Shown: piece after piece, positions 18,880 to 44,603 of the stretch
How positions within the stretch are numbered: the first letter of the stretch is position 1
Layout: every line of letters starts with the position of its first letter
NCBI GenBank assembly: GCA_002746975.1
Contig: NVXE01000003.1
Coordinates: 147,321-211,320 of the forward strand
From: Bacteroidota bacterium
GTDB lineage: Bacteria > Bacteroidota > Bacteroidia > Flavobacteriales_D > Sanyastnellaceae
Direction of reading: 5' to 3'
DNA length: 64,000 nt
Position numbers and translations under genes: made by a program
The notes under the pieces: generated by a model
Database searches by the model: none
What the model was told of the DNA's origin: nothing
What the model saw: only the letters and a program-made list of their open reading frames with translations

Positions 18880-18889
18880 CACTATGAGG

Positions 18890-18925: not shown

Positions 18926-18997
18926 GGCCCCGTAGTTCAATGGATAGAATAGGACTTTCCTAAAGTTTAGATGCAGGTTCGATTCCTGCCGGGGCTA
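18926..18997 (+). tRNA. tRNA-Arg (anticodon CCT)
   Basis: The 72-base cloverleaf has acceptor stem GGCCCCG with CGGGGCT, anticodon loop TTCCTAA (CCT at its centre) and T-arm GGTTCGATTCC. No CCA is encoded. Its 3' end is repeated at 19171-19194, consistent with use as an integration site. Confidence 0.93.
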
Positions 18998-19695: not shown

Positions 19696-20460
19696 TTACT
19701 CATAAAGATCAATCCCAGCAGATTCAGCTAGCTCAATAAACTTATCAATTTTACTAGCAAAATTAATACCTTGAAATTCTTCTTGCATCGCCAATTCAGC
19801 AATTCCTATTACTTCTTCAGTTTCACTCAGTATTATCGGTCCACCACTATTTCCAGGATACACATTACAATCAAGCTGAATTAAATCTAGTTCGTTATTG
19901 GGGAGCTGTAATAAAGTATTACTAATTTTCCCTTCAGTAACTGAAAATAGACCCTTTGGATATCCAATAGCTTTTACTTCATCTCCAATTTCTATGTCTG
20001 CTGAGCTTCCTAATGTGAAATAAGGCATGTCCTCTGATAATACTGAGGCATCAATCAATTTCAAAACGGCAAAATCCGTAACCTCATCTAATGGGTTACT
20101 ATTATCTATCCACACTACTCTGGCACTAGTGCTGATCTCCGGATCAGTCTTTTTGAATATTATTCCAACTTCATCACCTATTTGTACTCCCTCAATTACG
20201 TGTCTAGCAGTTAACAATGTTCTACTACCAGTTAAAAAAGCACTGCCTGTAGCAATGTCACTATAAACAAATGCAACGGGTGAAGTTATGGATGAAGCGT
20301 TCACCGGCTGTGTAAAATCACTAAAGGGTTTTTCCATTACCCCGATGGAAATAAAAATAGTGAGAAGCATCATAATAAAGATAATCTTCTTCTTTTTTAA
20401 AGTTTCTTGAAGCCCTGATTTATACTTTGACTTTTCTATTTGTCCTATTGGTAATTTCAT
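19696..20460 (-). CDS. Membrane-anchored trypsin-like serine protease
   Basis: The 254-aa protein has a basic cytoplasmic N-terminus, one membrane helix (about 25-43) and an S1-type protease domain. The catalytic triad is visible: H87 in LTARHVIEG, D129 in VTDFAVLKL and S205 in YPGNSGGPI. Unlike DegP/HtrA there is no PDZ domain. It should act in the periplasm, tethered to the inner membrane. It is the last gene of the 12-gene operon, 11 bp after the tubulin-like gene, so it may process or regulate the partners (inference). Confidence 0.85.
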   Translation of the reverse strand: MKLPIGQIEKSKYKSGLQETLKKKKIIFIMMLLTIFISIGVMEKPFSDFTQPVNASSITSPVAFVYSDIATGSAFLTGSRTLLTARHVIEGVQIGDEVGIIFKKTDPEISTSARVVWIDNSNPLDEVTDFAVLKLIDASVLSEDMPYFTLGSSADIEIGDEVKAIGYPKGLFSVTEGKISNTLLQLPNNELDLIQLDCNVYPGNSGGPIILSETEEVIGIAELAMQEEFQGINFASKIDKFIELAESAGIDLYE

Positions 20461-20471
20461 TGCTTCTAAAT

Positions 20472-22931
20472 TTAAAGTAAATCGGTTTTAACCTGTTTAG
20501 TATTAAAATAAGGGACTCTTTCTGAAATAAACTCATCAGTAAACATACCGTCTACAATAAATTGGCTTTTAGTCTTTTTTAAAGACGAAAAATCCCGTGT
20601 AGGTAATAATGATTTTTCTAATACATTTTGATTTGCATTTCCACCAAAATACCCATAACTTTTAAACACAGCAATAGAGTTTTGTAGGTAATTAACATCC
20701 ACAAAGGATTGGTTATCTACATCATCATTTACTTGATTGGCTTTGCTTCGAATAGAGTTTCGAATTAAATTAAACTGTGATTCATCTTTATATAAGTATA
20801 TAGTTTTCAAGAAACTCGAATCCTGAAAAACAGATCTTGAGTCTATATCCCTATCCAGTTTCATTAAAGCTGGGGGAGCATATTGCAAGTCCGTTTTATC
20901 AACTTTAATAAGATTAGCAACATCTGGGTTTGGATAGTTTTGAATAAGATTGTCTATTGATATTCCACTGTTAGAGATTGATGATCTAACCGACTGAACT
21001 ATTGGCGATAAAATTTCAAAATACAAACCATTTGTACTGGACATAAACTCCCAAAGATTTTTACTTCCAAGTATCAGCTTCGAAGAAATAACCTTTTTTA
21101 AATCTACACTTGATTTAAGGGATTGTACTTCACTTTTAAAGTTGCCTTGAGGGTACATGTTGTAAATCATGCCATAGGAAACACTCATGCCTTCAATAAT
21201 AGAAGATCTTTTGTTAAATGAAATTGTATTTGGGATGGTGTTTTCAATTACATTTTTCAAATCATTTTGGCAACTGGATAGTTTGCTAATAGAAGGTAAA
21301 ACATAATTATTATCAGTAGTTTTTAGCGGATTATCTGGGTTTGCTAAATGCGATTTTATAACTTTAATTTCATCAATGAGCAGATGCAATTTCATTAAAG
21401 TTGTAATATTTTGAAGCTGTTCTATATAATACTCCTTTTCAATAGCATATAAATGATACTTCCCATTTTCTTTATCAAGTCTTTTAATACTTTGTCCTAA
21501 TATGGTATTCCAATTCGCACCGGTATCATCGACCTTGTATTCCTTTAACCAAAATTCAAACAAGAGGCTAAGGTGATTATCTAAACTTTCAATATAATGT
21601 TTTGCAATGGGTATATTGGGTATATTCAAAATTAACTTATCAAATCGCTTTGAAATTTGTTTAATAAACCCATCACGAGCCACGAAAAGTTTGTTTTTCA
21701 CTTGTCTATACACATTGGTATCACTATCGAACTTAAAGGAATTAAACACCATTTCGTTCATAGAGTTGTAAGGCTCAAATTGCTTTTTTGTTATGCGAGT
21801 AGCCAACGATTCTATATAAGTGACAATAGAGTTTGAGCCTTCGTGTGAAATATCATTTAATTCATTTTCTATGGCATAGTTTATAGCATCTTCCGCATCC
21901 TTTGAGGCCATGTTTTTTACCCTAACTTCTTTATCCTTAAATTTATCTGAACTAATCCATTCATTGATAATTTCACGAGAATATCCTAATGCTATAAATT
22001 CTTCAAGAATAGCCTTTGGATATTGTAGTAAGGATAGGCCAACAGTTATAAAATTAGTCACATGCTGGGCACCACCTGCACCGTCAATCCACCTTGCTGA
22101 GGAAACATTTTTAAGGCCTCTAATTTTATCCCCACCTAATAAAGATACATATAGCCCCATTGTTTTAAACATTGGAGTAAGATCATTATAATCGCACATG
22201 TGGGTGTTATTTATCCCACTTTGATGAAAATAATCTGGCGAAACAACCACATTTATGTCATATGGCGCTTTAGGGCCTATAGAATTTGGTAACGGAGTTC
22301 CATCTGGCCAAGTCACTGAATAAGTATTATTCGGTACTGAATAATACTCTAAAGCTTTAATGGCAAAATAAGAGTTTATAAAAAAGTTCGAGGTATTCTG
22401 GCTCAAATCAGATTCCTTAGGAATCATCAAAAGAGAAAAGAGTTTGGCATTTGCAATTAATTGTCTAATTAAATAAGCTAGATCAATAAAAATTCCCGAT
22501 CCTGTACCTCCAGTTAAAGACCCAACGATATATACAGAGTCAAAACCTCCTGAAACTTGGTTAAGTGCTAGAATTTTATTTTTAACCGCACTAAAATTCG
22601 CCCATAAAGATAACCTACCATAAGATGATTTGCCACCAGCCCCAGATGTTCCCAACGCTAAGGTTGCATTAGGAATCCAATCAGAGTCGATATTAGGGTC
22701 ACTTCTAAACTGACTTATTGGAAATGACATTTGGTCTAAACAAAGCTCTACGCCCAGAATGTCATTTGTTCCTAAAGGTGTTTTTCTAGGTGTATTACTT
22801 AAATCCGTTTCAAGATATAAGTACTGAACATCATCTGGCTTATTCTTGCCTGTAAACTCATAGTTAAACTGTTGAGCCTCCTCCAAAACTCTAAGACCAC
22901 TTGATCCAATTCCAATATATAACGTAGCCAT
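20472..22931 (-). CDS. Tubulin/FtsZ-like GTPase (Tubulin_2-type)
   Basis: The 819-aa protein opens with a Rossmann-like GTPase fold: ATLYIGIGSSGLRVL at the N-terminus, GTSGAGGKSSYGR near residue 95-106, and the tubulin signature SLTGGTGSG at 138-146, which binds the nucleotide phosphates. It is not FtsZ: it is twice as long, and beyond about residue 330 it continues as a large, mostly helical region I cannot assign. Such divergent tubulin relatives have been described in bacteria as predicted membrane-remodelling proteins. No membrane segment is visible, so it should be cytoplasmic and polymerise under the operon's membrane proteins (inference). It follows the 129-aa membrane protein gene by 3 bp. 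Confidence 0.85.
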   Translation of the reverse strand: MATLYIGIGSSGLRVLEEAQQFNYEFTGKNKPDDVQYLYLETDLSNTPRKTPLGTNDILGVELCLDQMSFPISQFRSDPNIDSDWIPNATLALGTSGAGGKSSYGRLSLWANFSAVKNKILALNQVSGGFDSVYIVGSLTGGTGSGIFIDLAYLIRQLIANAKLFSLLMIPKESDLSQNTSNFFINSYFAIKALEYYSVPNNTYSVTWPDGTPLPNSIGPKAPYDINVVVSPDYFHQSGINNTHMCDYNDLTPMFKTMGLYVSLLGGDKIRGLKNVSSARWIDGAGGAQHVTNFITVGLSLLQYPKAILEEFIALGYSREIINEWISSDKFKDKEVRVKNMASKDAEDAINYAIENELNDISHEGSNSIVTYIESLATRITKKQFEPYNSMNEMVFNSFKFDSDTNVYRQVKNKLFVARDGFIKQISKRFDKLILNIPNIPIAKHYIESLDNHLSLLFEFWLKEYKVDDTGANWNTILGQSIKRLDKENGKYHLYAIEKEYYIEQLQNITTLMKLHLLIDEIKVIKSHLANPDNPLKTTDNNYVLPSISKLSSCQNDLKNVIENTIPNTISFNKRSSIIEGMSVSYGMIYNMYPQGNFKSEVQSLKSSVDLKKVISSKLILGSKNLWEFMSSTNGLYFEILSPIVQSVRSSISNSGISIDNLIQNYPNPDVANLIKVDKTDLQYAPPALMKLDRDIDSRSVFQDSSFLKTIYLYKDESQFNLIRNSIRSKANQVNDDVDNQSFVDVNYLQNSIAVFKSYGYFGGNANQNVLEKSLLPTRDFSSLKKTKSQFIVDGMFTDEFISERVPYFNTKQVKTDLL

Positions 22932-22934
22932 ATT

Positions 22935-23324
22935 TTATTTTTTTAAAAGTTGTGTCATTTTATTATACTCATTATAAAATAATGAAACTGCTAGAACAAA
23001 GATGATGATTTGGGGTAATAGACGTAAATATGTGTTCGAAGAATCCCATTCAAAGGCTAACCATTGAAAACTATGGGTACCATTGAAAAGATAAAGGATC
23101 GCAACATAAACGGCTAGCAGTAGCAAAACAATACCAAGCCCAGTAAGTTGAATCATTTTTAGCCTAATACCAATACTTAGGTTGCTATTCCTTTTTCTAA
23201 TAAACCCTATCAATTTAAAGCTCCACAACAAAAAAAGCATAATTATTATTAAGCCAGCTAACTCCATTGCTAAATCAGGTAAACCAAAATATTCTGTACT
23301 TATAAAAAGATCATACATAGTCAT
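22935..23324 (-). CDS. Small three-helix membrane protein of the tubulin operon
   Basis: The 129-aa protein has three strong membrane helices (about residues 18-40, 57-81 and 103-119) joined by a short basic loop (FIRKRNSN) and a polar loop. I recognise no family. It is encoded 3 bp ahead of the tubulin-like GTPase and 6 bp after the 384-aa vWA-like protein, so it is a good candidate for the membrane anchor of the GTPase (inference). The second methionine (residue 3) is an equally good start. Confidence 0.7.
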   Translation of the reverse strand: MTMYDLFISTEYFGLPDLAMELAGLIIIMLFLLWSFKLIGFIRKRNSNLSIGIRLKMIQLTGLGIVLLLLAVYVAILYLFNGTHSFQWLAFEWDSSNTYLRLLPQIIIFVLAVSLFYNEYNKMTQLLKK

Positions 23325-23330
23325 TATTTA

Positions 23331-24485
23331 TTAATACAACGAATCATTATCATCCGTTGATGTTGTTTTATTTTCTTTGCCTTTATTCCACCAACCAAAA
23401 GGATCATTCTTTTTAACGTATAAGGCACCTGCCCCAATCGCTAAAATAACTAGAAGAAAAAACAGGCTTCCATACGATGTTTCGCCTATTACTTCAACAT
23501 ACTGGTTATTATTCTGGCAAGCAGAAATGCCATTTCCTCGTATGGTTATTTTGTACAATCCAGGCTCCAGTTTCATTAATACATTATTACAATCAATACA
23601 AGTTAGAGTTTTAGATTTTTTCGTGTCTAAATTCATGGCTTTAACCGTATACTTAGTATTGTCTTTGGCGCCTAACCCTATCCAAGAAACAGCTATATTT
23701 TGACCTTCATTTACAGACTTATATTTAGATTTAGTTCCAATAGGAGTAACAAAACGTAATGAGCTATTATTTATATTCTGGTTTTGAATAATACCTTTAC
23801 TGCCACTTGTATTATTGTTACCCGATAATATTTTTATATTAACTATCTTCACGCTAACACTTAGGGGCTTGTTATTAAGCCTAAATAAACCAGAAGACTC
23901 AATAATGGCAGAGCTTTCGTAATTGTCAATTAATTGTTGTTGACTACTACTTAGCCCGTTGCTTCCTGTTTGATCTCCACTTAAGCCGCCTATCTCAATT
24001 AAATAATACGTTTTTATATTGGCATCAATTGCAATATCTGCCGCTTTAGCATGTGCTAAATTAACAAAAGTAAGCTGGTCGGTATAAGACAGGTTATTTG
24101 AATAATCGATAGCCTGTTTTAGAGATACAGATGCAGAATTATTTTGAAAAATTTTGAATTTTTTATACGTGTTCTGATTTCCGTAAGGAATTACTGTAAT
24201 GCTGTTAATATTATTCAAAACAGAAGAATTAGACCCTGAATATGCCTCTTTTACAAACCCATCTAATCCGCTAGGTATCCAGTCATAAAACTCGTTTTTT
24301 GATATATTTCCCAATATTAATTGATTACATAGCTTAATAGCACTGCTCCGATTATCACTCGAAATTTTGTTGTCAGATTGCAATGGGTTTCCTGAAACAT
24401 CTATTAAAATAAAAATATCATTTTGAGCCATTGAAATAAGGGCTGTAACAATAAATATAAATAGAATGGATATTTTTTTCATCAT
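23331..24485 (-). CDS. Periplasmic vWA-like protein with decayed metal site and C-terminal anchor
   Basis: A signal peptide (about 1-20) is followed at once by IFILIDVSGNP, the position and form of a von Willebrand A strand with a MIDAS-like motif. The third MIDAS residue is Asn (D29, S31, N33). A later domain is rich in beta-strand and has paired cysteines (CIDC). A single membrane helix (about 338-358) and a short charged tail, which should be cytoplasmic, end the 384-aa protein. It begins 2 bp after the 422-aa vWA gene. Whether it binds metal is doubtful. Confidence 0.7.
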   Translation of the reverse strand: MMKKISILFIFIVTALISMAQNDIFILIDVSGNPLQSDNKISSDNRSSAIKLCNQLILGNISKNEFYDWIPSGLDGFVKEAYSGSNSSVLNNINSITVIPYGNQNTYKKFKIFQNNSASVSLKQAIDYSNNLSYTDQLTFVNLAHAKAADIAIDANIKTYYLIEIGGLSGDQTGSNGLSSSQQQLIDNYESSAIIESSGLFRLNNKPLSVSVKIVNIKILSGNNNTSGSKGIIQNQNINNSSLRFVTPIGTKSKYKSVNEGQNIAVSWIGLGAKDNTKYTVKAMNLDTKKSKTLTCIDCNNVLMKLEPGLYKITIRGNGISACQNNNQYVEVIGETSYGSLFFLLVILAIGAGALYVKKNDPFGWWNKGKENKTTSTDDNDSLY

Positions 24486-24487
24486 TT

Positions 24488-25756
24488 TTAATTCTTTGAT
24501 TCAAATTTTGGGTTTATTGACGACATAAACACTAATACACATGTCAAAATAACAATAAACGAAATCACATATATAAAACACCAATTTCGTTTTTGAATAT
24601 TTTTAATAGCGTACAATAAAGAATTTACGTAAGATTCTTTGTCATATCCATCAAGTAATTCAACAGAAGACTGCTTGATTTCTTCAAATAAGTATTGATC
24701 ATATAAATCACCGATGTTAATAATAGAAATATCATTGTAATAGTCCTCCATAGATTGTTGGGAGGTAGTTTCTACTATTGTAAAGATATCGAACCCATTG
24801 GGTACTTTGGTGGGGGAAGTTTCAGAATATAGATTCCCTGCACCATCCGTTATAATAATAAAAATCTTTTTGTCTTTTGTAACTAAATTCTCTTTGTCTG
24901 TAGTGAACAAGAAATTAGCCCAAATTGTTTCAATTAATGGAGACCCTAGACAAGATGTTTCAATAGGTGTATTCTGAATAAAAGAGGTTGCCGCACCAGT
25001 GTTGCTAAAATGATAGTTAACTCCAAGCAAGTTCTCATGCCTTAGCTCGGAGATTACCTCATTAACGTCCTTTTTTAACTTTCGAATATACCTTTCACAT
25101 TGGTTCTCATTATAATTTGGGAAATAAGAAATATTAAAAGTTGTATTGTCAACGGTGGTTCGCATCGCCTGTGCTAAATAGTTTCTGCTTTCGTTAATAG
25201 ATTCATCAGTACTACCACTATTATCTATTAGTATGGAAACTTCGGCCTTAGTTTCTGTAATAGATTGCATAAGCAACACGACAAACGGTAGTGTCAATAA
25301 TACTAAGATAAAAAGCTTAGCCTTTTGGAATTTAGAAATTAGTAACCTTGTAACTTGTGCTTTCTTTATTAAACTAAGCTGTGGCCTGATAAATGTATTA
25401 ATGTTATCACGTCCTTTAGTATGATTAAATAGTTTAATTAGTAGGGTTGAACTAATTAACGCGATTACAACAATTAGATCTAATGCAAAATTTTCGTCAA
25501 CAATAAATTCTTGGTAAAAGAAAATGAAAACAACATTAGCACACAATAAGACAATAAATAGGAGGTAAGAGGTTAGTTTTATGGATTGTAAAGATGTGAT
25601 AAAATGTAAACTTTCTTGCGAATTTATTGTTTTACTTGTTAAATTAACAAACAAAGCATTGAACAACAGGAATGATAAAACAATACCCACCCAAGCTTCA
25701 ATAGTTAGTCCGAAACCAATAGCTGAAAGGTCGTTAATGTAATGCGCCCACTCCAT
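24488..25756 (-). CDS. Multi-pass membrane protein with vWA domain
   Basis: With the start at 25756 (422 aa) the ATG overlaps the permease stop as TAATG; an extension to 25807 would overlap that gene by 52 bp. Four membrane helices fill the first 165 residues. A vWA domain follows with an intact MIDAS motif, LIDNSGSTDES (D178, S180, S182), and a later ITDGAG. A last helix lies at the C-terminus. The plan recalls BatA/BatB-like vWA membrane proteins, but no MoxR ATPase is nearby. The vWA domain is probably periplasmic and binds a divalent metal and a protein partner (family knowledge). Confidence 0.8.
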   Translation of the reverse strand: MEWAHYINDLSAIGFGLTIEAWVGIVLSFLLFNALFVNLTSKTINSQESLHFITSLQSIKLTSYLLFIVLLCANVVFIFFYQEFIVDENFALDLIVVIALISSTLLIKLFNHTKGRDNINTFIRPQLSLIKKAQVTRLLISKFQKAKLFILVLLTLPFVVLLMQSITETKAEVSILIDNSGSTDESINESRNYLAQAMRTTVDNTTFNISYFPNYNENQCERYIRKLKKDVNEVISELRHENLLGVNYHFSNTGAATSFIQNTPIETSCLGSPLIETIWANFLFTTDKENLVTKDKKIFIIITDGAGNLYSETSPTKVPNGFDIFTIVETTSQQSMEDYYNDISIINIGDLYDQYLFEEIKQSSVELLDGYDKESYVNSLLYAIKNIQKRNWCFIYVISFIVILTCVLVFMSSINPKFESKN

Positions 25757-27195
25757 TATCGACCATAAATTAAATCTCCTGGTGTACTGTTTCGTAATCT
25801 TCTCCACAGTCTATAATAAACCGATATAATAGGGATTAGAATGAACGAAACAATTAACCAAGGTAATTGAACATTGGTATAAATAATGTTTTGGTCAACA
25901 CCAATATTTGCCACTGAGATTAAAAAATCTAAAATCATCCCTCCAAGAAAAAATGAGAGTAAGTGGGCAATTATGAATGCTATTGAAACAATAATAATGG
26001 AAATGAAAACATAAATAGCAATAACGGTTTTATTTGCTAGTCCAAATGCCTTTAAGGTCCCTAAACTTAATTTATTGTTGTCTAAATGATTTATTATTAA
26101 GTGTGTTGTAAATATAAAGATGCTAAAAATACTAAAGAAAATTAAACTTAAAGAAAGAAGATTCGATAATTTATTAAAGAAATCAAAATTTTTCTTAGAC
26201 TCAATAGTATTCATATCCACTTTTAAGCCAAAAGTATGATCCAAATATTTACTAAAAGACGAAATACTATCTAGATGATTAAATGAAAATGAAATATGAT
26301 CAGGTTTATTAACATACTCATCTGTTATTGAAGTTGGGTTTTTTGCATAATCATATAAACGAATAGCACCAGGATAATTATTTGCCAAGTTTGATATTTC
26401 CACACCATTGAAGGATCCTTTCTTTTCAATGATTATACCCGATGAAGTTACTAAATTATAATCTCCTATAATTGAGTATCCAGAAGACATTAAATCTTTT
26501 GGAATTTTGTTAACATTTGGGATATAAAACTGAAGATACCCATTATGGAAACCAGAATTAACATCTAACCGTCCATCCTCTGAAATTGCATTGAAGAATT
26601 CTTTACTAATTAACATATCAGCGTAATCAGGTAACTGAGAAACAATCCCAGATATCTGGATAGGAATAGTGTCACTCGTACGATAATTTAAATAATATAT
26701 AAACGATACATTTCCAAGTGAATATCCCATTTCAGTTAAAAATTCCTCCGTAACGATGCACCCAAATTTCTCATCTTCCAGATACATCTCCGTTTTTGAG
26801 ATTTCAGGATCTGTTTTAATAAAATTATAAAACACACTGGATTCCCTAATTAATCTTACGGTAACTTCGAATTCACCATGTGTGGGAGATACCATCGTAA
26901 GCCTATTAAACTTAACTGGCTCAATTGTAGAGTAGCCATAATGAGTTTTTAAGTTTATTGAGTCTAAAATATTTACATCAATTTTGTTAGAGTAATCGAT
27001 TGTAACATTTAAGAACTTAATAAATGGATTGTCCATTTTTTTCTTTAAATATAGTGTCGCACTATTTCCGAGTCCAATTGCAATTATTGAGATGAAAATT
27101 ATCAATGTCAACGCAATAAGATTCTTGAATTTAGACCCAGTAATAGATTTAAATTCGGGAAATCCAAAATAAACTATAAAGTCAAATTTTCTCAT
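25756..27195 (-). CDS. FtsX/MacB-type ABC transporter permease
   Basis: The 479-aa protein has one membrane helix near the N-terminus (about 24-45), a large extracytoplasmic domain (50-340) and three helices at the C-terminus (about 345-465). This is the 1+3 topology of FtsX, LolC/E and MacB permeases, which do mechanical work on periplasmic partners or lipoproteins rather than classical transport. Its start overlaps the ATPase stop by 4 bp, so the two form one ABC unit. The substrate is unknown. Confidence 0.85.
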   Translation of the reverse strand: MRKFDFIVYFGFPEFKSITGSKFKNLIALTLIIFISIIAIGLGNSATLYLKKKMDNPFIKFLNVTIDYSNKIDVNILDSINLKTHYGYSTIEPVKFNRLTMVSPTHGEFEVTVRLIRESSVFYNFIKTDPEISKTEMYLEDEKFGCIVTEEFLTEMGYSLGNVSFIYYLNYRTSDTIPIQISGIVSQLPDYADMLISKEFFNAISEDGRLDVNSGFHNGYLQFYIPNVNKIPKDLMSSGYSIIGDYNLVTSSGIIIEKKGSFNGVEISNLANNYPGAIRLYDYAKNPTSITDEYVNKPDHISFSFNHLDSISSFSKYLDHTFGLKVDMNTIESKKNFDFFNKLSNLLSLSLIFFSIFSIFIFTTHLIINHLDNNKLSLGTLKAFGLANKTVIAIYVFISIIIVSIAFIIAHLLSFFLGGMILDFLISVANIGVDQNIIYTNVQLPWLIVSFILIPIISVYYRLWRRLRNSTPGDLIYGR

Positions 27196-28049
27196 TTTGA
27201 ATTATGGTTGAAAATTTCAGTTTTAAATTTTTGAGATATCTCATTACTAGAATAACGTTTATTAAACCCAGTCCATTCGTTATTCCCAACTCGTAGAAAG
27301 ATTGATTGTTCATCAATTAAACCGTGAGAATTTGTATTTTCATCGTTTCGTATTAAAACAATTTTTGTTGCGAATTTTACAGCTAAATCAATATCATGAG
27401 TCACTATAATAGATGTCTTTGATTCGACATTTTCTATTAAAATCTTCATTAATTTTTCAGCATTTCCCACATCCAAATTACCTGTAGGTTCATCTGCAAA
27501 TAACACCGAGTAATCTGATACAATTGCTCTAGCAAATGCAATTCTTTGCCTTTGCCCTCCAGAAAGTTCAGTAATTGGTTTATCAATAGTTACGTCAGGT
27601 AAAATATTCTGAATAATATTTTTAGTTCTTTTAACTGCCTCAGCTTTTGATTTACCCTGTAATATTGCTGAGATTATAATATTATCAAATGCAGATAAAC
27701 TCTTAAACAAATTAGTGTTTTGAAAAATAAAGCTTAAATGTTTGTTTCGAAATGCAGCAATATTTTGTTCTTTCTGATTCCATAATTCATGAATATGGAT
27801 AGACTCATTTTTAGTATTTGTAAAAGTAAATAGCGTGTTATTCTCTGTCGAATTATAAATGGTGTTATTCATTAACCCTAACGTTTCTAGGATAGTACTT
27901 TTCCCAACTCCAGATGGACCTATAAAGAACGTATTAGACCCCCTCTCTATACATAATTTATCTATTACTAAAACGGGTGATAGATTAGAGGGATACTTAC
28001 ATTTAAGCCGTACTATTTCAAATACATTATTCATTTCCTGGGAATTCAT
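27192..28049 (-). CDS. LolD/MacB-type ABC transporter ATP-binding protein
   Basis: This is the motor ATPase for the adjacent permease. Motifs are intact: Walker A GPSGVGKST (from residue 44), Q-loop FIFQN (Q110), signature LSGGQRQR (162-169), Walker B VLFADEP (182-188) and the switch histidine in IIVTHDID. About 30 extra residues sit between Walker A and the Q-loop compared with typical LolD. An alternative start at 28034 (residue 6) reduces the overlap with the preceding vWA gene from 23 to 8 bp. Confidence 0.9.
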   Translation of the reverse strand: MNSQEMNNVFEIVRLKCKYPSNLSPVLVIDKLCIERGSNTFFIGPSGVGKSTILETLGLMNNTIYNSTENNTLFTFTNTKNESIHIHELWNQKEQNIAAFRNKHLSFIFQNTNLFKSLSAFDNIIISAILQGKSKAEAVKRTKNIIQNILPDVTIDKPITELSGGQRQRIAFARAIVSDYSVLFADEPTGNLDVGNAEKLMKILIENVESKTSIIVTHDIDLAVKFATKIVLIRNDENTNSHGLIDEQSIFLRVGNNEWTGFNKRYSSNEISQKFKTEIFNHNSK

Positions 28050-30444
28050 TTAATGGTATCCAATAAAATGTTTGTCCTGCTAATTCAAACTTTGAAGAAG
28101 TAAACGCGTTTTTGCGGAAATTATCAGCCTGTATTTTAAAAGTCTTGAAAAAAGAATAAAATACCTGGTCCTCTAACTTATCCATATCACGTAATTTCAT
28201 TTTTGCTATCTTATTATTCCCTTTGAACGGAACACCTAAAATAATATCCCAAACCTCGTTCATTGTCATTTCAATCACAACTTCCTCAGGTGCTCCAAGC
28301 ATTTGCATTGTTTGTTGAAGTATTGCATTTTTAAATTCTTTTTTCTTTGCTGAGCCAGAGCCATAACGACCAAGTTTGCTTAATGTTTGGTCAATTTGTA
28401 TTTTCTCATTATATGATAAAAAGACAACGGGGTAAAAACTAACTTCGGATTTACCAAAGAATTTAGTAGAAGTATAGCCCTTTGCTGATATATCCCCCAT
28501 GCTCTTAAGTAACTTTATTTGGTCATCAGTAAACCCCATTCTTTTTAAATATAAAATAAACTCAGTAGTAAAAATTTCGCTAGCATTTGAATTACTTCCT
28601 TCAGTAGATGATTCAAGAAGTTGGATTTCTTTTTTAGTTTTTAAAAGGTATTCGTTGGTTGCTTCATTTATATTTTTTTCTAAAATATCTGTATCCATAG
28701 GTTTGTTACCTGATGCGTATGTATATCGACCAAACATTTTAAATGAATTAGAATCTTCATTATATTTTACCATATATGAATTTTTATCACTTATTTTTTC
28801 AAGTTTTACATCCTGCTTTTCTTCAACATAATTCCTGGCAGTCTCACGAAGAAACGATCTTGTGTCATAGTTAAACTGAAAATAACTATCGTAATCACCA
28901 GAAATTACTTGAAAAGCAATTAAGCTAATTCTCCCCCCAATTAATTTCTCAATCACCATTTCTTTAGTAAACTTCTTAGGGTCTGGGTAGTGGTTGCCAG
29001 CATCTCCAATCAGTACCAAAACGTTACTATGTCCAGTAACAAAACCAGCTTGGTCAATTCCGTTTATAAGGCCTTGGTATTGGGCTTCCGGACGATCATT
29101 ATCATTACTTTTACAAATAGTTGATTTAGCTGCTGAAATTACTTTATCATAATCTGATGTTAATGGTATGATTTCAAAAGTTCCATCAGCATCAGCATAA
29201 TCTCTATATATGGCTAAACCAAATCTTAGTTTAGTTCCGCTACCGTTTGTTTGTTGGTTTTTAATAACTCTTTCAATGCTATTGGCAATTGAAGAAAAAT
29301 AGGCGGACATACTTTGCGTAGCATCGACAACAAAAAAAATGTCTACATTATTAATAGATGTTTGGAGTTTTTTAATTTTCTGTTTTATTGTCGCAATATC
29401 CTCATCTTTTTTCTTATTAGATCGTAAACTGGCAATGGTTGCTACTTTCTTGATTTCACCTGTGTTGAATTCATCTTTATAAGTTTCTAATATTGGCATT
29501 CTCATTATATATGGATTTTGCCTTTTCTTAGTTACCTCAATCTTTTTTATGATTTTGTCTTTTGACGTAGTCATGTCATTAAGCTCTAGAAAATCCAAAA
29601 TATATTTTACGTCATCATTAAAAATGGGTAGTTCATAGTTTTGATACTCTGACAATGCACGTGATCCATAATTCGGTTCCAGGCATACTCTATGATCCCA
29701 GTTTGTAACATTAATTTTGGGAATCCAACCAACTACTCTTTCTTTTAATTGAATTTGACCACCGTTTAGTTTGTCGGTACTTGAAAGTAATATCATACTG
29801 CCCTTTTCTTTCAAAACGTAGTATATTTTAAATTTATTTGCGCTTTTCCCGTTCCTGTTTATTAAGCTATTACTCGGAGAGTTATAAAAATATTTTTGTT
29901 GTAATTCTTCTTCGTATTCATTCATTTTAGATGGATCTAAGTTGCTTACCGTAATTAGGATCATTGCTTTACGTGTAGAAGATTTTTTATTGAGTACAGC
30001 AGCATAATTGGATAGTATAAGGTTCTCGGCACTTATCCACCCTCTTTCGGTGTAAGGGGCTTCTTTTCTTTTATAGTTTTCTTTCATTGAAGCAACTAGC
30101 AACATTTTACCTTCAGCTTTTAACACAAATAATCTTTCCATATAGGATAGTGTTTCTGATTTCTTAGATATTTTAGAGGGGGATAAAAATAATGTGTTTT
30201 TATCTCTGTCACTAAATACTACCCAGTCACTTTGATTAGTTGATTCTAAGGCTCCCAAATTAACATTACCACTATATACGTTTTCTAAGTATGATTGCTT
30301 ACTATAAGTTGTAAACACATCAGGCGTTGTCATAAAACCATTCTCACTCGTTTTAGGATTTATTAATGCACCACTAATCGATATTATAGAAACCGATATA
30401 ATAATGATTTGACAAACTGTTTTATTAAAAAAAGATGATTTCAT
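28027..30444 (-). CDS. Large secreted vWA protein with SH3-like segments (TssR-like?)
   Basis: The 805-aa protein has an N-terminal hydrophobic signal or anchor (about 9-27). Two SH3b-like modules with a GWI core follow (near 134-144 and 236-246). A vWA domain has the MIDAS variant VVDATQSMS (D374, T376, S378) and a second conserved Asp in GLAIYRDYAD. The C-terminal 250 residues are helical and charged. The order and length recall, from memory, TssR of the Bacteroidota type VI secretion system, yet no tube, sheath or VgrG gene is present here. It lies between the 193-aa protein (20-bp overlap) and the ABC ATPase. Function unknown. Confidence 0.72.
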   Translation of the reverse strand: MKSSFFNKTVCQIIIISVSIISISGALINPKTSENGFMTTPDVFTTYSKQSYLENVYSGNVNLGALESTNQSDWVVFSDRDKNTLFLSPSKISKKSETLSYMERLFVLKAEGKMLLVASMKENYKRKEAPYTERGWISAENLILSNYAAVLNKKSSTRKAMILITVSNLDPSKMNEYEEELQQKYFYNSPSNSLINRNGKSANKFKIYYVLKEKGSMILLSSTDKLNGGQIQLKERVVGWIPKINVTNWDHRVCLEPNYGSRALSEYQNYELPIFNDDVKYILDFLELNDMTTSKDKIIKKIEVTKKRQNPYIMRMPILETYKDEFNTGEIKKVATIASLRSNKKKDEDIATIKQKIKKLQTSINNVDIFFVVDATQSMSAYFSSIANSIERVIKNQQTNGSGTKLRFGLAIYRDYADADGTFEIIPLTSDYDKVISAAKSTICKSNDNDRPEAQYQGLINGIDQAGFVTGHSNVLVLIGDAGNHYPDPKKFTKEMVIEKLIGGRISLIAFQVISGDYDSYFQFNYDTRSFLRETARNYVEEKQDVKLEKISDKNSYMVKYNEDSNSFKMFGRYTYASGNKPMDTDILEKNINEATNEYLLKTKKEIQLLESSTEGSNSNASEIFTTEFILYLKRMGFTDDQIKLLKSMGDISAKGYTSTKFFGKSEVSFYPVVFLSYNEKIQIDQTLSKLGRYGSGSAKKKEFKNAILQQTMQMLGAPEEVVIEMTMNEVWDIILGVPFKGNNKIAKMKLRDMDKLEDQVFYSFFKTFKIQADNFRKNAFTSSKFELAGQTFYWIPLNEFPGNE

Positions 30445-31006
30445 AACCTTGCTTCTTGTATATATTTGAAATTATTGACTTTTCTTCTTGCTTGAAATTG
30501 TCATTATAATAAGCTGTAACATTTAGGCCTTTTACAAGTCCAGGCTCAAATTTTAATCGGTTAGATAAAAGGACCTTATTTATCAATGTTTTTGTTTGAT
30601 CGTATTCAATAGAGTGGGTTAAATCAAAAATGAAATACATGTTTATTTCTTCCGATAAAGTTGAATCATAATTTCGTGATTGAATATCTGGAAAATATGT
30701 TTCTAGAGTTTCAGAAATCATATTGACTTCGAACAAAACCTGAGGAGAAGAAGGCGAAATACTATATAGTTGTTTTAAATCTTGTGATAATGACTCTAAA
30801 CTATTTAGAATAATAGGAGACTTATCATTACTAATATACACAATAAAATTATCATAGTTGCTTGCCCTAATAATGTCTTCGGTTTGTTTTATAACTTTAT
30901 CAATGTCTCTTATATTACTATTATCAATGTAGATGAAAGTTTTGCTTGCATGCAAATTAACGCCAAATTGAAGTAGAAAAACCATTGTTAATAGATATCT
31001 CATCAC
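30425..31006 (-). CDS. Secreted protein, possible decayed vWA domain
   Basis: The 193-aa protein has a signal peptide (about 1-20, ending LHAS), then TFIYIDNSNIRD, which occupies the place of a first vWA strand and MIDAS loop. A second hydrophobic strand MYFIFDLTHS and alternating helix and strand pattern follow. The metal motif is incomplete (D-x-N/S-x-x), so it may be a vWA fold without metal. It overlaps the zinc-ribbon gene by 4 bp and the large vWA gene by 20 bp. I do not recognise a family. Confidence 0.6.
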   Translation of the reverse strand: MMRYLLTMVFLLQFGVNLHASKTFIYIDNSNIRDIDKVIKQTEDIIRASNYDNFIVYISNDKSPIILNSLESLSQDLKQLYSISPSSPQVLFEVNMISETLETYFPDIQSRNYDSTLSEEINMYFIFDLTHSIEYDQTKTLINKVLLSNRLKFEPGLVKGLNVTAYYNDNFKQEEKSIISNIYKKQGYEIIFF

Positions 31007-32070
31007 TTAATTTTAAAATTAACCGTTACGCTTTCTCCATTTTTGCTAAAAGTAGTAATTGCTTCGTATGTTATTTCCTCATTCCAATAATCATTATCTA
31101 ATTTATTAGCCAAATCTTGAAGATCATCTTGCTTTATACCATTTACTAAAACAACCCCTTTGCCATCAATTACTTTTTTGAATTGGAAGAAAAGACCTCT
31201 ATTGGCTGGGTCGGCACCATATTTTTTCGCCGCAGAAATAATTTTGTCTTTATCCAATGGATTGCAACCAAGTGCTCTCCCTGTGCTACCATTGATAGGG
31301 GCTATTGTATCATTAGAAAGGGGATCTATTCCCCAGACATCATAGTTTTTGTCATTCTTGGTAAATGCCCACTTTAATCCTGTTTTATATTCTCCCTTCT
31401 TCCCTGTTACTGATATTAAAACTTCATTTTTTGGGTATAATTCTTCATAATTTGAATGAACTTCAATGGAACAGTTACCCACATTTTTAACTGTAAGACT
31501 TAATGGTTCATTACAATATGATGATTCGTTCCTTATAGCCCCGTTTTTAAATTCGAAAGAAGCTACAGATTGGTTTTTAGACCATTTATTATTCTTATTC
31601 CGGTTTAGATCATCCAAGGTCCAAGTAATGGTAATTTGCCCGTTAGAACAAGGGTATATTTTACCCTTTTTAATATTCGTTGGTACAGAACCTTCTGAAA
31701 AGGCTTTAAAATTACAACGTGCAAAAAGTAGTGTATCATCATTAAACGTTATCCTTTTTTTCCCTTCTCCCTCTTTACATATAAAATATACTAATATATG
31801 ATCTTTTTTGTTTTCGAAATATAATATGAACTCTTTACAATTTGTTTCAGAACAAAGATTTATTTTCATGTATAACCCACTGGCTACTATCAGTAAAACC
31901 AATATTGAGATAAGTCTATTTTCTAAAAAAAAGTATTTGACCTTTTCTATTAATGATTCTTCATGAACATTAATCAAATCGTCCTTTCCACAACTTGAGC
32001 AGCTGAAAGTATATTCATCTCCCAGAAACTCATTCGAACAAGTGTTACATTTATATTTATTAGTTGCCAT
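31003..32070 (-). CDS. Zinc-ribbon, single-pass membrane protein
   Basis: The N-terminus is a CxxC-x12-CxxC zinc ribbon (C8, C11, C24, C27). One membrane helix (about 52-70) follows, then about 280 residues that should lie in the periplasm. The last 90 residues contain AAKKYGADPANRGLFFQFKKV and a KNGESVTVNFKIK end, and the middle part has scattered cysteines. The ribbon would be cytoplasmic, so the protein could link a cytoplasmic partner, perhaps the tubulin-like GTPase, to the envelope (inference). It begins 2 bp after the barrel gene. Confidence 0.7.
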   Translation of the reverse strand: MATNKYKCNTCSNEFLGDEYTFSCSSCGKDDLINVHEESLIEKVKYFFLENRLISILVLLIVASGLYMKINLCSETNCKEFILYFENKKDHILVYFICKEGEGKKRITFNDDTLLFARCNFKAFSEGSVPTNIKKGKIYPCSNGQITITWTLDDLNRNKNNKWSKNQSVASFEFKNGAIRNESSYCNEPLSLTVKNVGNCSIEVHSNYEELYPKNEVLISVTGKKGEYKTGLKWAFTKNDKNYDVWGIDPLSNDTIAPINGSTGRALGCNPLDKDKIISAAKKYGADPANRGLFFQFKKVIDGKGVVLVNGIKQDDLQDLANKLDNDYWNEEITYEAITTFSKNGESVTVNFKIK

Positions 32071-32072
32071 AA

Positions 32073-33638
32073 TTAAAAATTGTAATTTATTCTGAAATTA
32101 ATTGTCATATCATTAATCGTATAAGAAGTTGAAAGATTTGTTAAACTATTAACTGTATTAAAGTCATCACTCAAGCCTTTTATATTTTCTTCAAATATAT
32201 CATTAAGTCCTTTGACGTAAGAGAAATTTAATGATAACGCCATTCTTCTATTAAGCTTTCTTCCAAAACCACCAGAACCATATAATGAAAATATATTTTC
32301 AACAGGGGTGAGTGAGCCTTCACCTGAAATATCAAAATATCCAAAGTCATAAACTCCATTTTCTGCTAATGTTATTTGGTATAGCGAATCGTAGAACCCA
32401 GAATAAAAACCTTTTCCTGCTGACTTATATGAAGAACTAGTAGAAATGCTCCAAATTCCACCAAATTCTATTGAAATGAAATTTTTAGGCTTCCCCAACA
32501 TGAAGTTTTTTTGAATTGCTAACGGAAAACTTATATATTGTAGAGTTACTGCCTCTTCGATATTGCTAATACTATTAGTACGCCAATAAAGGGAGTTGTC
32601 AGGATCTATTGCGTTTTGGGAATACGTGTAATTGTTAACTGACATCATAAATCCTAAACGCTTAAAATGTACTCCTGATTTTATAAATAAATAAATTTTT
32701 GGTACAATTACGAAGCCAATATTTATACCTGCATTTTGAGTTGTGTTATTAATCAATTCAGGGCTATAATTTGTTCCTTCAAATGTAATTGGACTAGTTT
32801 GAAATGGGTTAATTCCAAACTCAAATTCTGTGTAGAAAAGAGGTCTCCTAAAGACTATTACTTTAGAGTTTGGATCATTGTTTCCTGCAGGCTCAAGTTT
32901 CTTATCGTATGAACTGGTGATTGTATATTTAGGAATTAAACTCACAAACATGGATTCAATAACAATTTCAGTACTATCAGTAATATTTCGTAATAGGAAA
33001 TTCCCATCAGGATTAACGGGTTTAGCCTCTCCATTTATTATTAAAGTGTCGCCTGCGTATGAAGATGTTTTAGTTAAACCGTCCTTTCTTAGAATTACTA
33101 AGTTGCAATATTTTCCATATTCTTTGCGAGCAATAATTGAAGATATTTTATAATATTCTAGTTCCTTATTAAATTTAACTGTTATATCAATGTCAAATGT
33201 GTCCGAATAGATAACCTTATTTTTTGTTTGAATAGAAATTACTTTTTTAGCATAAACAGTAATAAGTCCATAATTATCCTTTGTTTTTTGGATAGGGCTA
33301 ATTTCATATGGTCTTATTACAACCTCTAGCGTGTTAGGTTCGTAGTAAGAGTCTATTTTTCTTATATATTCATTTGGAGTTATTTTTGAGTTTAATTGAT
33401 TATCAGGCATTATATCGTTAAAAATCAAAATCTCATTATTTTCAAAGAGAATTTCAAATCTATCTAAGTCTCTTGAATTCCTAAAATTAAGGGATACTTG
33501 ATGCTCATCAATTAGGTTTAAAACCTGTAAATTAATTCTTTGTTGACGAATGTCTTCCCTCTGTTTTTGGGCAATAGTTGAAATGCTAAAAAGTCCAAAA
33601 AATATCAAGCCGAATATTTTAATAATAAAAAATCTCAT
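32073..33638 (-). CDS. Outer-membrane beta-barrel protein with N-terminal periplasmic region
   Basis: The 521-aa protein has a signal peptide (about 1-23, ending STIAQ). About 230 residues of beta-rich soluble sequence follow. The C-terminal half shows alternating amphipathic strands (GINIGFVIVPKIYLFIKSG, SFPLAIQKNF, MALSLNFSYVKG) and ends in INYNF, an aromatic last residue as in outer-membrane barrels. It resembles PorT/OmpA-like small barrels of Bacteroidota. It overlaps the T9SS cargo gene by 4 bp, so it may hold that protein at the surface (inference). Confidence 0.72.
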   Translation of the reverse strand: MRFFIIKIFGLIFFGLFSISTIAQKQREDIRQQRINLQVLNLIDEHQVSLNFRNSRDLDRFEILFENNEILIFNDIMPDNQLNSKITPNEYIRKIDSYYEPNTLEVVIRPYEISPIQKTKDNYGLITVYAKKVISIQTKNKVIYSDTFDIDITVKFNKELEYYKISSIIARKEYGKYCNLVILRKDGLTKTSSYAGDTLIINGEAKPVNPDGNFLLRNITDSTEIVIESMFVSLIPKYTITSSYDKKLEPAGNNDPNSKVIVFRRPLFYTEFEFGINPFQTSPITFEGTNYSPELINNTTQNAGINIGFVIVPKIYLFIKSGVHFKRLGFMMSVNNYTYSQNAIDPDNSLYWRTNSISNIEEAVTLQYISFPLAIQKNFMLGKPKNFISIEFGGIWSISTSSSYKSAGKGFYSGFYDSLYQITLAENGVYDFGYFDISGEGSLTPVENIFSLYGSGGFGRKLNRRMALSLNFSYVKGLNDIFEENIKGLSDDFNTVNSLTNLSTSYTINDMTINFRINYNF

Positions 33639-35617
33639 CGGTTCAACATTATTTTACGGGTGAATACTGTAGCATTATTTATTATCGAAATAAAATAAAT
33701 ACCATTAGGAATGTCATCACCAAATCGTATTGAATTGCCTGCTCGATTTATTGAGTATCTTACTATTGATCCTTTTAAATCAAAAATATTAATTATTGAT
33801 TTCTCTAGATCCACGCCAGCAATATTAAGATCTCTCATTGATGGATTTGGATATACAATAAAAGTGTTATTAATGGATAATTCGTTCGTTGATGCAATTA
33901 TAGGTAGTGGATTAAAGTACGATTTTGTTTCACAACTTATTGTACTTGAATAAGTATAAAAGGTCTGTACCCAATACTTATAGAGCATTGTATCAATCGC
34001 GTGAGGTAATTGAACATACCGTAAATCTGCTCCAATAATTATTTCGGTATTCCCATTTGTCCGAATATCATACCCCCATTGATATTGAATGTTTTGCGTT
34101 GAATCATTACAAACTAAAATATTACTGTTAGGTTTATGAATTATACTAGTTTTATTTGGCGCAACTGACCCTTCAATCTGAACTTCAATACCCTCGGTAA
34201 TAGAACATCCTGTTGACGTTATAGTTTGTTCTAGAAATAATGTATCACTGTCTAAAGGACTGTTGTCCCAGTTAATAATAACAGTTGATAGGGTTTGACT
34301 ACCAACAACAGTGCCTTTAGCTAGGGTCCAGTTGTATGCATATCCAAAATATACACTATCAATAGCATATGCTACATCTTTTTGATTTGCACAGACCTGT
34401 TGATCACCAATAATTAAAGCATTGTTCGGAAGTGGGTTAATAACCATAACTAATGTATCTGTATTAACAACACCACATCCATCGTTCGAAGTCGTTAACA
34501 TTCTATACATTGTGTTTTCAAATAGTGGAATAGTCTCTTGATAAATATAATTATTATTACCTACATTATTCCAAATCAATCCAGAAAATGGTTTCCGTTG
34601 CCATTGGTACATATAAGGTGTTCTTCCACCGGCAAAACCCGTAGCAGTTAGTTCTGTTGGTATGGTGTTGTAACAAATGGTATCAATACCTATTACAGTC
34701 CCTCCAATAAATTGATCGGCAACATTCACCTCGGCAATAGCAGTTGTGTCTTCAATACCACACCCACTGTTTACTCGAACTCGGTAGTCATGACTACCTA
34801 ATAAAAGTTCAGTAGTATAGCTTGTAGAGTTAGTTGCACCTGTTGCATTAGACCAAGAGTTAGCCCCTGCAAGAGATTCTTCCCAAACATATACATAGTT
34901 ACTGTCACCACCAACAGTGTTGTTTAAGGTTAATGGGGTAGAAGTATTGTAACAAATTTGAATAAATGCAGGGGTGATATTCCCCGCAGAGATATCCTCA
35001 CGAACAAAGACATCAATAATGTTGGAGTATTTTGTTACGGAACATAATGAGTTTAATACTTTAACTCTAAACCAACGTTGAGCTGTTAGCAAGCCAGGAG
35101 AATAAGTCAAACCACTTTGACCAGTACTTGTCCAACCTGAAGTTCCGTTAGCTGACCATTCCCAATCATAAGTAAAGGTGCTGTCAGCACCAACGGCATC
35201 AGTTCTGGTTAAATCAAGTGGTGCAGTATTATAACATATAACTTGGGCTGAATTTATTGAGGATGGTATTATGGAATCTAAGACATAAATATAGACCCAA
35301 GCTGAATCAGAATTAACGGTATCTGAAACAACTAATGATACCAACTGTATTCCAGAGGTGTTATAATTAACGGTTTCTTGATTAAACACGGAACTATTAG
35401 GGCTCCCATTACTAAACGTCCAGTCATAGCTTGGTGAAAAGAACCCATTTGTATCAGAATTAAATAGTAATGATTCACCGAAACAAATGTTTATAGTATC
35501 TCCGTCATTTTTGAGGACTCCGCCAACTTTTATTTGAGTTGTTTGACTGTATATGCTAGTATTGAGTATTGAAAAAGTGGCAAAAAATAAAATTGACTTA
35601 TTGAAAAGATGGTACAT
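33635..35617 (-). CDS. Secreted Ig/PKD-repeat protein with T9SS sorting domain
   Basis: The 660-aa protein has a signal peptide (about 1-24). A PKD-like domain follows (YDWTFSNGSPNSS, with VSLVVSD), then three similar Ig-like modules, each opening with a [V/I]CYNT-[A/S/I]-P motif, and a T9SS type A C-terminal domain (VYPNPSMRDLNI ... NGIYFISI ... RKIMLNR). It should be exported by the type IX system and displayed on or released from the cell surface, perhaps as an adhesin. It is the first gene of the 12-gene operon. Its ATG lies only 42 bp from an IS3 terminal repeat, so the promoter must be in that gap or in the IS remnant. Confidence 0.85.
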   Translation of the reverse strand: MYHLFNKSILFFATFSILNTSIYSQTTQIKVGGVLKNDGDTINICFGESLLFNSDTNGFFSPSYDWTFSNGSPNSSVFNQETVNYNTSGIQLVSLVVSDTVNSDSAWVYIYVLDSIIPSSINSAQVICYNTAPLDLTRTDAVGADSTFTYDWEWSANGTSGWTSTGQSGLTYSPGLLTAQRWFRVKVLNSLCSVTKYSNIIDVFVREDISAGNITPAFIQICYNTSTPLTLNNTVGGDSNYVYVWEESLAGANSWSNATGATNSTSYTTELLLGSHDYRVRVNSGCGIEDTTAIAEVNVADQFIGGTVIGIDTICYNTIPTELTATGFAGGRTPYMYQWQRKPFSGLIWNNVGNNNYIYQETIPLFENTMYRMLTTSNDGCGVVNTDTLVMVINPLPNNALIIGDQQVCANQKDVAYAIDSVYFGYAYNWTLAKGTVVGSQTLSTVIINWDNSPLDSDTLFLEQTITSTGCSITEGIEVQIEGSVAPNKTSIIHKPNSNILVCNDSTQNIQYQWGYDIRTNGNTEIIIGADLRYVQLPHAIDTMLYKYWVQTFYTYSSTISCETKSYFNPLPIIASTNELSINNTFIVYPNPSMRDLNIAGVDLEKSIINIFDLKGSIVRYSINRAGNSIRFGDDIPNGIYFISIINNATVFTRKIMLNR

Positions 35618-44600: not shown

Positions 44601-44603
44601 GCC

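Follow-up and report, generated by a model that had tools for sequence, protein, structure and literature searches.

What kind of system is encoded where a bacterial tubulin, a transporter-like ATPase and a set of surface proteins share one closely packed array of genes? The question is raised by a 64,000-nucleotide stretch of a Bacteroidota bacterium of the family Sanyastnellaceae (assembly GCA_002746975.1, contig NVXE01000003.1, positions 147,321 to 211,320), here called the window and numbered from its first letter. A preliminary description, made from the letters and their open reading frames (ORFs), had placed twelve minus-strand genes at 19696-35617 and proposed an envelope-spanning system acting through a cytoplasmic filament and an ATP-binding cassette (ABC) motor. 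The ORF list confirms all twelve genes at these coordinates. Comparison across genomes shows that the conserved core of the operon is not the tubulin; it is a triad consisting of a TssR homologue, a LolD-like ABC ATPase and an FtsX-like permease.

TssR, LolD-like ATPase and FtsX-like permease form a fixed triad

The 805-amino-acid (aa) product of the operon had been described as a von Willebrand factor type A (vWA) protein. It does carry a vWA domain; its fuller identity is a homologue of TssR, with both the vWA and the N-terminal barrel domain matched in Pfam (Table 1). In Bacteroides fragilis, according to the available text of PMC10781749, TssR is a lipoprotein of the membrane complex of the type VI secretion system (T6SS) of subtype iii (T6SSiii), and deletion of tssR ablates T6SS-dependent competition.

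Using the N-terminal part of the window ATPase as query, we scanned a collection described as 84,980 species. Counts were made on the best 45 loci (E<=1e-10), reduced to 40 by removing five duplicate records (L117, L119, L129, L135 and L144; Portibacter isolates among them), and the family is at least this large. Among these 40 loci, a TssR gene lies directly upstream of the ATPase gene in 38 of 38 testable cases and an FtsX gene directly downstream in 35 of 36. At the sole miss, L125, the ATPase ORF is split over two frames and an FtsX ORF stands behind it; the dropped duplicate L135 missed FtsX only through the overlap limit used. The titles name Prevotella, Alistipes, Bacteroides, Paramuribaculum, Saprospiraceae, Prolixibacteraceae and others, one locus being titled as a Caldiserica bin, and nearly all are metagenome bins. 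The three genes are thus linked as a fixed triad. Frequent companions are an OmpA-type barrel, a zinc-ribbon anchor, a small vWA-fold protein and a PKD protein secreted by the type IX secretion system (T9SS): where at least 7 kb of upstream sequence is present, outer-membrane protein genes accompany the triad at 20 of 35 loci and PKD/Por-type genes at 16 of 35. The linkage across loci supports the earlier idea of an envelope system with an ABC pair.

A further 33 loci matched more weakly. Eighteen had a scored ATPase, eight of them with a TssR-like gene upstream and all eight with gammaproteobacterial titles; L162 gave a ninth TssR-like match. Within the window's own genus a full-length TssR match was found in 3 of 14 genomes, and the three copies differ in their recognised partners: tubulin in one, a GTPase plus a subtilase in another and none recognised in the third.

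Tubulin belongs to one of several exchangeable modules

Searches with profiles built from single window genes or their families found two loci that share much of the operon. L111 (a Sphingobacteriaceae bin) has matches to 8 of the 12 window genes on a contig that ends inside the tubulin gene, and L124 (a Bacteroidetes bin) to 7 of 12, tubulin and trypsin included. Both follow the gene order of the window, apart from the PKD gene of L111, which has a divergent orientation. Proteins compared pairwise between the three loci are 22-39% identical, and their TssR proteins form one clade (support 97). Co-occurrence of at least six of the genes in other lineages, named at the outset as a sign of a single system, is therefore observed.

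Elsewhere the triad keeps other company. Kinase, PP2C and/or FHA(-trypsin) genes lie near it at 11 of the 40 loci (Pfam on L104), SrfB/SrfC at one (L118) and T6SSiii genes at two (L123 and L138), L123 being counted here although it has a PP2C gene too. In L138, TssN and TssC were assigned by Pfam and the remaining T6SSiii genes by resemblance; TssK was labelled by its position and by resemblance, as the TssK proteins examined have no Pfam match. A T6SSiii locus also shares one contig with the triad module in genome G433. Weak DO-GTPase2 matches, under the Pfam cut-off, stand beside the module in L047 (2e-5) and L046 (0.005), PAAR and Tle1-like genes adjoin the core in L054, and in L146 (12886-20272) the triad is followed by nSTAND1, PAAR and eCIS_core-domain genes. 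When the partner table was recomputed with references from other loci only, excluding self-matches, at least two partner matches were kept by all 11 kinase/PP2C/FHA loci, both tubulin loci, L118, L123, L138 and L097. Separately, a TIR protein and an nSTAND1-WD40 protein are encoded downstream of the core in L139 (15946-20261).

A recognised tubulin accompanies the core at only 2 of the 40 loci. Conversely, Tubulin_2, whose N-terminal domain in Pfam we equate with FtsZl1, occurs in 13 of 395 Bacteroidota genomes, and no TssR or FtsX was found near the other 12 loci, several of them on short contigs; L015 alone among these has an ABC match, which scores as generic. When the order was searched with a profile of the window-type tubulin, 399 genomes gave one full-length match, the window's own, and three weak ones at which the core genes were not found. 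A plasmid search for the tubulin returned only three distant Thermus/Meiothermus-type matches. Because the core was not found at other Tubulin_2 loci and mostly lacks a recognised tubulin, the tubulin is one of several exchangeable modules and not a hallmark. The proposal that a cytoplasmic filament is the essence of the system is not supported by this distribution. The caveat that the GTPase might turn up without these neighbours was partly justified, as no TssR or FtsX was found on the stretches covered around the 12 other Tubulin_2 loci and the three weak ones.

Relation to the T6SSiii membrane complex

The kinship of TssR raises the question of whether these genomes also encode a T6SS. TssC was the only informative T6SS gene searched genome-wide, with a T6SSiii TssC protein as query; as a control, it found TssC in 10 of 10 genomes that have TssR without an ABC link, one of these being the source of the query. 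With it, TssC was not detected in 8 of the 11 ABC-linked genomes, namely the window's own (G000, 95% complete), G578, G548, G647, G685, G158, G064 and G039. Five of the eight are at least 92% complete and three 64-83%. TssC was found in the remaining genomes G576, G484 and G433. The VipB model (PF05943) was discarded as a T6SS probe because ten of the 16 genomes in which it gave no match over the cut-off have TssC by protein query; it misses T6SSiii TssC, for which PF17541 is the fitting family.

A profile of ten canonical TssP proteins matched in the ABC-linked loci L051 (2e-41), L132 and L138, and gave no match at E<=1 among the 12 window proteins. The genome of L051 is G576, which carries TssC. 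The 193-aa family reached 0.4% against TssQ and 0.2% against TssO in hhalign, and the zinc-ribbon protein was rejected as a candidate TssP for want of sequence support (hhalign 0.9%). Nesting of canonical T6SSiii TssR within ABC-linked TssR, seen in a quick tree rooted on gammaproteobacterial homologues, was likewise given up: the approximately unbiased (AU) test did not support it, and a tree better by 29 log units unites the ABC-linked rows in a single clade (p 0.895). Rows L118_5900, L113_7579, L121_7013, L082 and L054 were left out of the rooted tree; the tree that gave support 97 kept them.

The TssR-ABC-FtsX machine might be a non-contractile relative of the T6SSiii membrane complex, either its sister or its ancestor, whose cytoplasmic engine can be a tubulin, a kinase, SrfB/SrfC or a contractile module; in the window version a filament of bacterial tubulin would then be connected across the envelope with surface proteins. 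We regard this as possible and still rather doubtful. An ABC-linked TssR in genomes mostly without detectable TssC, together with TssP in three loci, would amount to an incomplete complex, yet to a testable candidate source system.

Related arrays in Gammaproteobacteria

A gene for a vWA protein stands ahead of those for an ABC/permease pair and an FGE-type protein in one bin each of Succinivibrionaceae and Methylococcaceae and in seven records of Pseudomonas (Pfam run on L147 and L148). We take the FGE-type proteins to be of the TagR class. The vWA protein aligns with TssR at 98.7% in hhalign (E 4e-16, 527 columns, TssR positions 171-784), with the N-terminal barrel of TssR outside the aligned part. 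The permeases reach 90.2% against the window permease family, compared with 0.1% for one generic control permease. No PpkA-like further relative of the gammaproteobacterial TssR homologue was found in the four genomes searched.

The partner module differs here too. In the Methylococcaceae bin it is a Tubulin_2 protein; the Pseudomonas and Succinivibrionaceae loci (L148, L151, L153, L158-L160, L164 and L162) have SrfB/SrfC, their srfB-srfC arrays running on into the TssR homologue, ABC, permease and FGE-type protein genes. The Methylococcaceae locus (L147, 1742-12451) holds tubulin, a zinc-ribbon TssR homologue, ABC, permease, FGE-type protein and a glycine-zipper lipoprotein in one array. That a tubulin recurs next to a set of this kind outside the phylum hints at a functional pairing. 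In the same locus the TssR homologue is fused to a zinc ribbon and a membrane span, which suggests that the separate zinc-ribbon protein of the window contacts TssR.

Composition of the operon

Successive genes of the operon are separated, by position, by 11, 3, 6, 2, -52, -4, -23, -20, -4, 2 and -4 bp. Gaps of at most 11 bp or overlaps of 4-23 bp had been described, and this holds for all junctions but that of the FtsX and 439-aa genes; the 52-bp overlap there rests on the listed GTG start and would all but vanish if the ORF began at an ATG farther along. On the strength of this spacing a single transcript for the 12 genes is plausible. Upstream, across a 376-bp gap on the same strand, lies a gene for a CBS-domain protein (35994-36710, a weak match), a possible regulator.

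Table 1. Features of the window discussed in the text.
Feature	Position	Strand	Basis
tRNA-Met and tRNA-Arg, insertion hotspot	18807-18998	+	ARAGORN
Operon-bearing region (one or several insertions), missing from two genus relatives	18999-52600		tRNA flanks of relatives, GC
Trypsin-like serine protease, membrane-anchored, 254 aa	19696-20460	-	Pfam Trypsin_2 2.2e-21
Tubulin-like GTPase, 819 aa	20472-22931	-	Pfam Tubulin_2 1.4e-28
Three-segment membrane protein, 129 aa	22935-23324	-	Three hydrophobic segments
384-aa protein, vWA-like by motif only	23331-24485	-	Hydrophobic segments at both termini; MIDAS-like DVSGN
Multi-pass membrane protein with vWA motif, 439 aa	24488-25807	-	Motif and L111 homologue
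FtsX-like permease, 479 aa (core)	25756-27195	-	Pfam FtsX 8.3e-8; hydrophobic 20-50, 342-464
LolD-like ABC ATPase, 285 aa (core)	27192-28049	-	Pfam ABC_tran 1.4e-21
TssR homologue, 805 aa (core)	28027-30444	-	Pfam TssR_VWA 4.1e-17, TssR N-terminal barrel 1.4e-11
Small secreted-looking protein, predicted vWA fold, 193 aa	30425-31006	-	AlphaFold2, Foldseek, VIA
Zinc-ribbon-like single-span protein, 355 aa	31003-32070	-	Cys 8/11/24/27; hydrophobic segment 44-67
Outer-membrane protein, NTF2-like domain and 8-strand OmpA-type barrel, 521 aa	32073-33638	-	AlphaFold2, VIA
PKD surface protein with T9SS sorting tail, 660 aa	33635-35617	-	Por_Secre_tail 1.4e-8, PKD_6 4.4e-6

The trypsin, tubulin-like, ABC, FtsX-like and T9SS-tailed identities assigned earlier were borne out by Pfam, the Por secretion tail of the 660-aa protein being a feature of T9SS cargo. 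The protease has a hydrophobic segment at residues 21-39 behind a Lys-rich N-terminus and a homologue in L124 (1e-17), and the GSLTGGTGSG loop of the tubulin-like protein is identical in the window, L111 and L124. The position of the 129-aa gene is filled by a hydrophobic protein in L111 (126 aa) and L124 (132 aa), without a sequence match. The 384-aa protein has no Pfam match and no profile match in L111 or L124. No Pfam match was found for the 439-aa protein either; it is 28% identical to its L111 counterpart, with DxSxS kept (profile match 2e-25). The zinc-ribbon protein, which has no significant Pfam match, has an L124 homologue (1e-14).

For the 193-aa product, previously called a secreted protein, the secreted-looking character stands and a predicted vWA fold is to be added. 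Its AlphaFold2 model, built from 17 sequences, has a mean predicted local distance difference test (pLDDT) score of 80.3; vWA/I-domain proteins make up most of its best matches in the PDB (lowest Foldseek E 4.8e-5), and the comparison with an integrin I domain gives a VIA Z of 9.9 with a root-mean-square deviation of 3.8 over 150 residues. MIDAS-like motifs were found in the 439-, 384- and 805-aa proteins, and together with the 193-aa fold up to four operon proteins may therefore carry vWA-type domains. The 521-aa outer-membrane barrel was also recovered by modelling (24 sequences, pLDDT 74.9, residues 175-264 poor) and can be refined. Its barrel part has eight strands and is nearest to OprF/OmpA (VIA Z 18.2, 2.3 A over 132), and the domain in front of it is NTF2-like, matching 3rob (Z 14.2) and 3cnx, titled NTF2-like (Z 13.0).

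The window ATPase scores below the NCBIfam cut-offs for LolD (132 of 308 bits), FtsE (122 of 265) and MacB (107 of 966) and is called LolD-like by best match; the non-ABC core proteins match no named NCBIfam family. A PDB sequence search with the window TssR, one T6SSiii TssR, TssP and the tubulin gave nothing informative, the tubulin returning a weak tubulin/FtsZ match (0.038) and TssP PKD-domain matches. PADLOC reported generic protease/ATPase parts and one weak match of the 805-aa protein (0.012), and no anti-phage system in the operon.

The operon lies in a variable region behind two tRNA genes

In two genus relatives, G548 and G643, a homologue of the window gene at 52598-53518 stands directly behind the same tRNA-Met and tRNA-Arg pair; the intervening region with the operon is absent. 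Two other genomes, G578 and G568, have other contents at this position. Mean GC between 19.0 and 52.6 kb is 0.344, compared with 0.429 and 0.404 on the flanks. The part at 50-52 kb alone reaches 0.405, so that more than one insertion is possible. Seventeen bases at the 3' end of tRNA-Arg are repeated at 19171-19187, possibly a trace of an attachment site. The operon-bearing stretch is probably mobile.

The same region encodes a 950-aa type IV methyl-directed restriction enzyme (39908-42760; PADLOC mREase_IV 3.5e-235). Nearby, 42771-44942 holds a 609-aa protein with PDC-S41, Nhi and AbiO matches, adjoining an ORF of 112 aa that looks MazG-like by eye, and two ORFs that look by eye like transposases, apparently broken, lie at 38761-39342 and 45059-46239.

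Possible functions

What might such an assembly do? The reading we prefer, at somewhat less than an even chance, is a trans-envelope relay that works in the manner of TagQRST-PpkA and is built on TssR, sensing contact or damage with the tubulin as its output. The ABC ATPase and FtsX-like permease in the inner membrane would couple ATP use to motion of a large periplasmic domain. TssR with its barrel and vWA domain, the small vWA protein and the zinc-ribbon anchor would span the periplasm to the OmpA-type barrel with its NTF2-like domain, and the T9SS-exported PKD protein would stand at the cell surface. An outside event, be it contact, attack or outer-membrane damage, would then be relayed inward to an exchangeable output module. 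In the window this module would comprise the tubulin-like GTPase, the vWA membrane proteins and the anchored trypsin; in relatives its place would be taken by the Ser/Thr kinase/PP2C/FHA set, DO-GTPase-like proteins, SrfB/SrfC or T6SSiii.

We favour a sensor relay because the kinase versions of the core use the protein classes of TagQRST-PpkA, their kinase/PP2C/FHA partners being of the PpkA/PppA/Fha classes. The fixed triad, the T6SSiii, PAAR, Tle1-like and eCIS_core genes beside some copies, the gammaproteobacterial arrays with FGE-type proteins, the zinc ribbon fused to the TssR homologue in L147, the published srfABC-tag neighbourhoods and the different partner set of each of the three copies in the genus also speak for it. 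Several observations weigh against it. The window operon has no FGE/TagR-like, TagQ-type, glycine-zipper or PpkA-type kinase gene among its Pfam matches, and 24 of the 40 loci, many on short contigs, are without a recognised tubulin, kinase/PP2C/FHA, Srf or T6SS set. On the Bacteroidota ABC profile the gammaproteobacterial ABCs score as unrelated ABCs do (148.7 versus 148.8 bits, best); the permease link to these loci is of moderate strength, and kinship to TagTS would hold at the level of class, as a LolD-like ATPase with an FtsX-like permease. Gene content and order, homology, linkage, the exchange of neighbours and the lack of the region in two relatives are observed here; protein contacts and topology, the direction of signalling and any use in conflict with other bacteria or phage are inferred.

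Export or surface display would give the same parts a different task, and we consider it unlikely. The TssR scaffold would be to the PKD protein or an effector, driven through it by ABC/FtsX, the conduit that the T6SSiii complex is to the tail tube. This would suit the place of TssR as a subunit of that complex (PMC10781749, available text), the frequency of PKD/Por-type and outer-membrane protein genes upstream of the triad and the T6SSiii or toxin-type genes that adjoin some core copies. However, its own T9SS tail gives the PKD protein a route other than ABC/FtsX, and no TolC-like gene is among the operon's Pfam matches. Eight-strand OmpA barrels, such as the one predicted here, are too narrow for the passage of proteins, and we know of no export of large folded proteins by LolD/FtsX-type pairs.

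Slightly less likely again is anti-phage or abortive defence, in which the envelope core would detect injection or damage and the tubulin/trypsin module would kill or arrest the cell. The type IV restriction gene in the same region and the patchy presence in the genus (3 of 14 genomes) speak for it, and the swappable NTPase, protease and kinase/PP2C neighbours, with the TIR/nSTAND genes at L139 and L146, echo conflict systems described in the available text of PMC7159879. Against this, PADLOC recognised only generic protease/ATPase parts in the operon, and a core linked with genes for surface proteins and T6SSiii would be unusual for defence.

An organelle for adhesion, gliding or predation, in which the envelope core moves or stabilises the surface PKD protein and the tubulin gives polarity, would account for the PKD protein, outer-membrane barrel and ATPase within one array; since the core occurs also with kinases, SrfBC and T6SSiii, and no motility family was matched in the operon, we think it improbable. 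Finally, an ordinary transporter of the Lol/MacB/FtsEX type with unrelated neighbours, to which the LolD-like best match of the ABC protein might point, can hardly be entertained when the ATPase scores so far under the LolD, FtsE and MacB cut-offs and the linkage to TssR is fixed.

Comparison with known systems

Beyond the view of the preliminary description lie the T6SSiii kinship of the 805-aa protein, the island and the resemblance of the relay proposed here to TagTS/PpkA. The findings tie to one envelope core three subjects that have been discussed apart, namely SrfABC, the TagQRST trigger and the bacterial tubulins that occur with vWA proteins; they offer a concrete setting for a possible role of a divergent bacterial tubulin and may help to show where the anchor and trigger of injection weapons of the T6SS kind came from. 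The parts have precedents, as in FtsZl1 loci and GAP1-N2 systems. Among the literature matches listed, from a search that mostly did not cover subscription papers, none joins TssR with ABC/FtsX or tubulin, and none shows the triad with its link to T6SSiii TssR and tubulin.

The FtsZl1 loci of Makarova and Koonin (2010; PMC2875224) resemble the window in combining a Tubulin_2 protein with vWA and membrane proteins. Unlike the window, they come with no mention of TssR, an ABC/FtsX pair or T9SS cargo in the available text, and their OmpA link is a peptidoglycan-binding domain, unmatched in the window operon. The GAP1-N2 DO-GTPase systems (Kaur et al. 2020; PMC7159879) likewise have a tubulin with a vWA membrane protein, or kinase/PP2C/vWA, as alternative modules. 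Their tubulin versions occur in Firmicutes and Actinobacteria, however, the available text does not mention TssR, FtsX or an ABC transporter, and Pfam found no GAP1 or DO-GTPase in the window operon.

In host-associated Deltaproteobacteria, srfABC clusters with tagQ and ppkA, mostly also with tagR/S/T, and only one of these organisms has T6SS machinery genes (PMC3608642, available text). The union of SrfBC with a TagT/TagS ABC pair is like that of the Pseudomonas loci described here, whereas tubulin and a relation to TssR go unmentioned in that text.

The T6SSiii membrane complex of Bacteroidota (TssN-TssQ-TssO-TssP-TssR; PMC10781749, available text) shares with the window a TssR with barrel and vWA domain. 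TssP homologues occur in three ABC-linked loci (L051, L132 and L138), and T6SSiii genes adjoin the module in L123, L138 and G433. By contrast, the window adds the ABC/FtsX pair, the outer-membrane barrel and the PKD protein, in a genome without detectable TssC and an operon without a TssP match.

The closest parallel in working is the TagQRST-PpkA-PppA-Fha relay of the Pseudomonas H1-T6SS, in which damage to the outer membrane is signalled, by way of a lipoprotein in that membrane, a protein of the periplasm and the TagTS pair, to a kinase that triggers T6SS assembly (PMC11881912 and PMC10482370, available text). Both systems link an ABC/permease pair to periplasmic and outer-membrane partners, and 11 of the 40 relatives of the window core have kinase/PP2C/FHA-type partners; the window differs in its TssR-type scaffold and in having a tubulin as the putative output.

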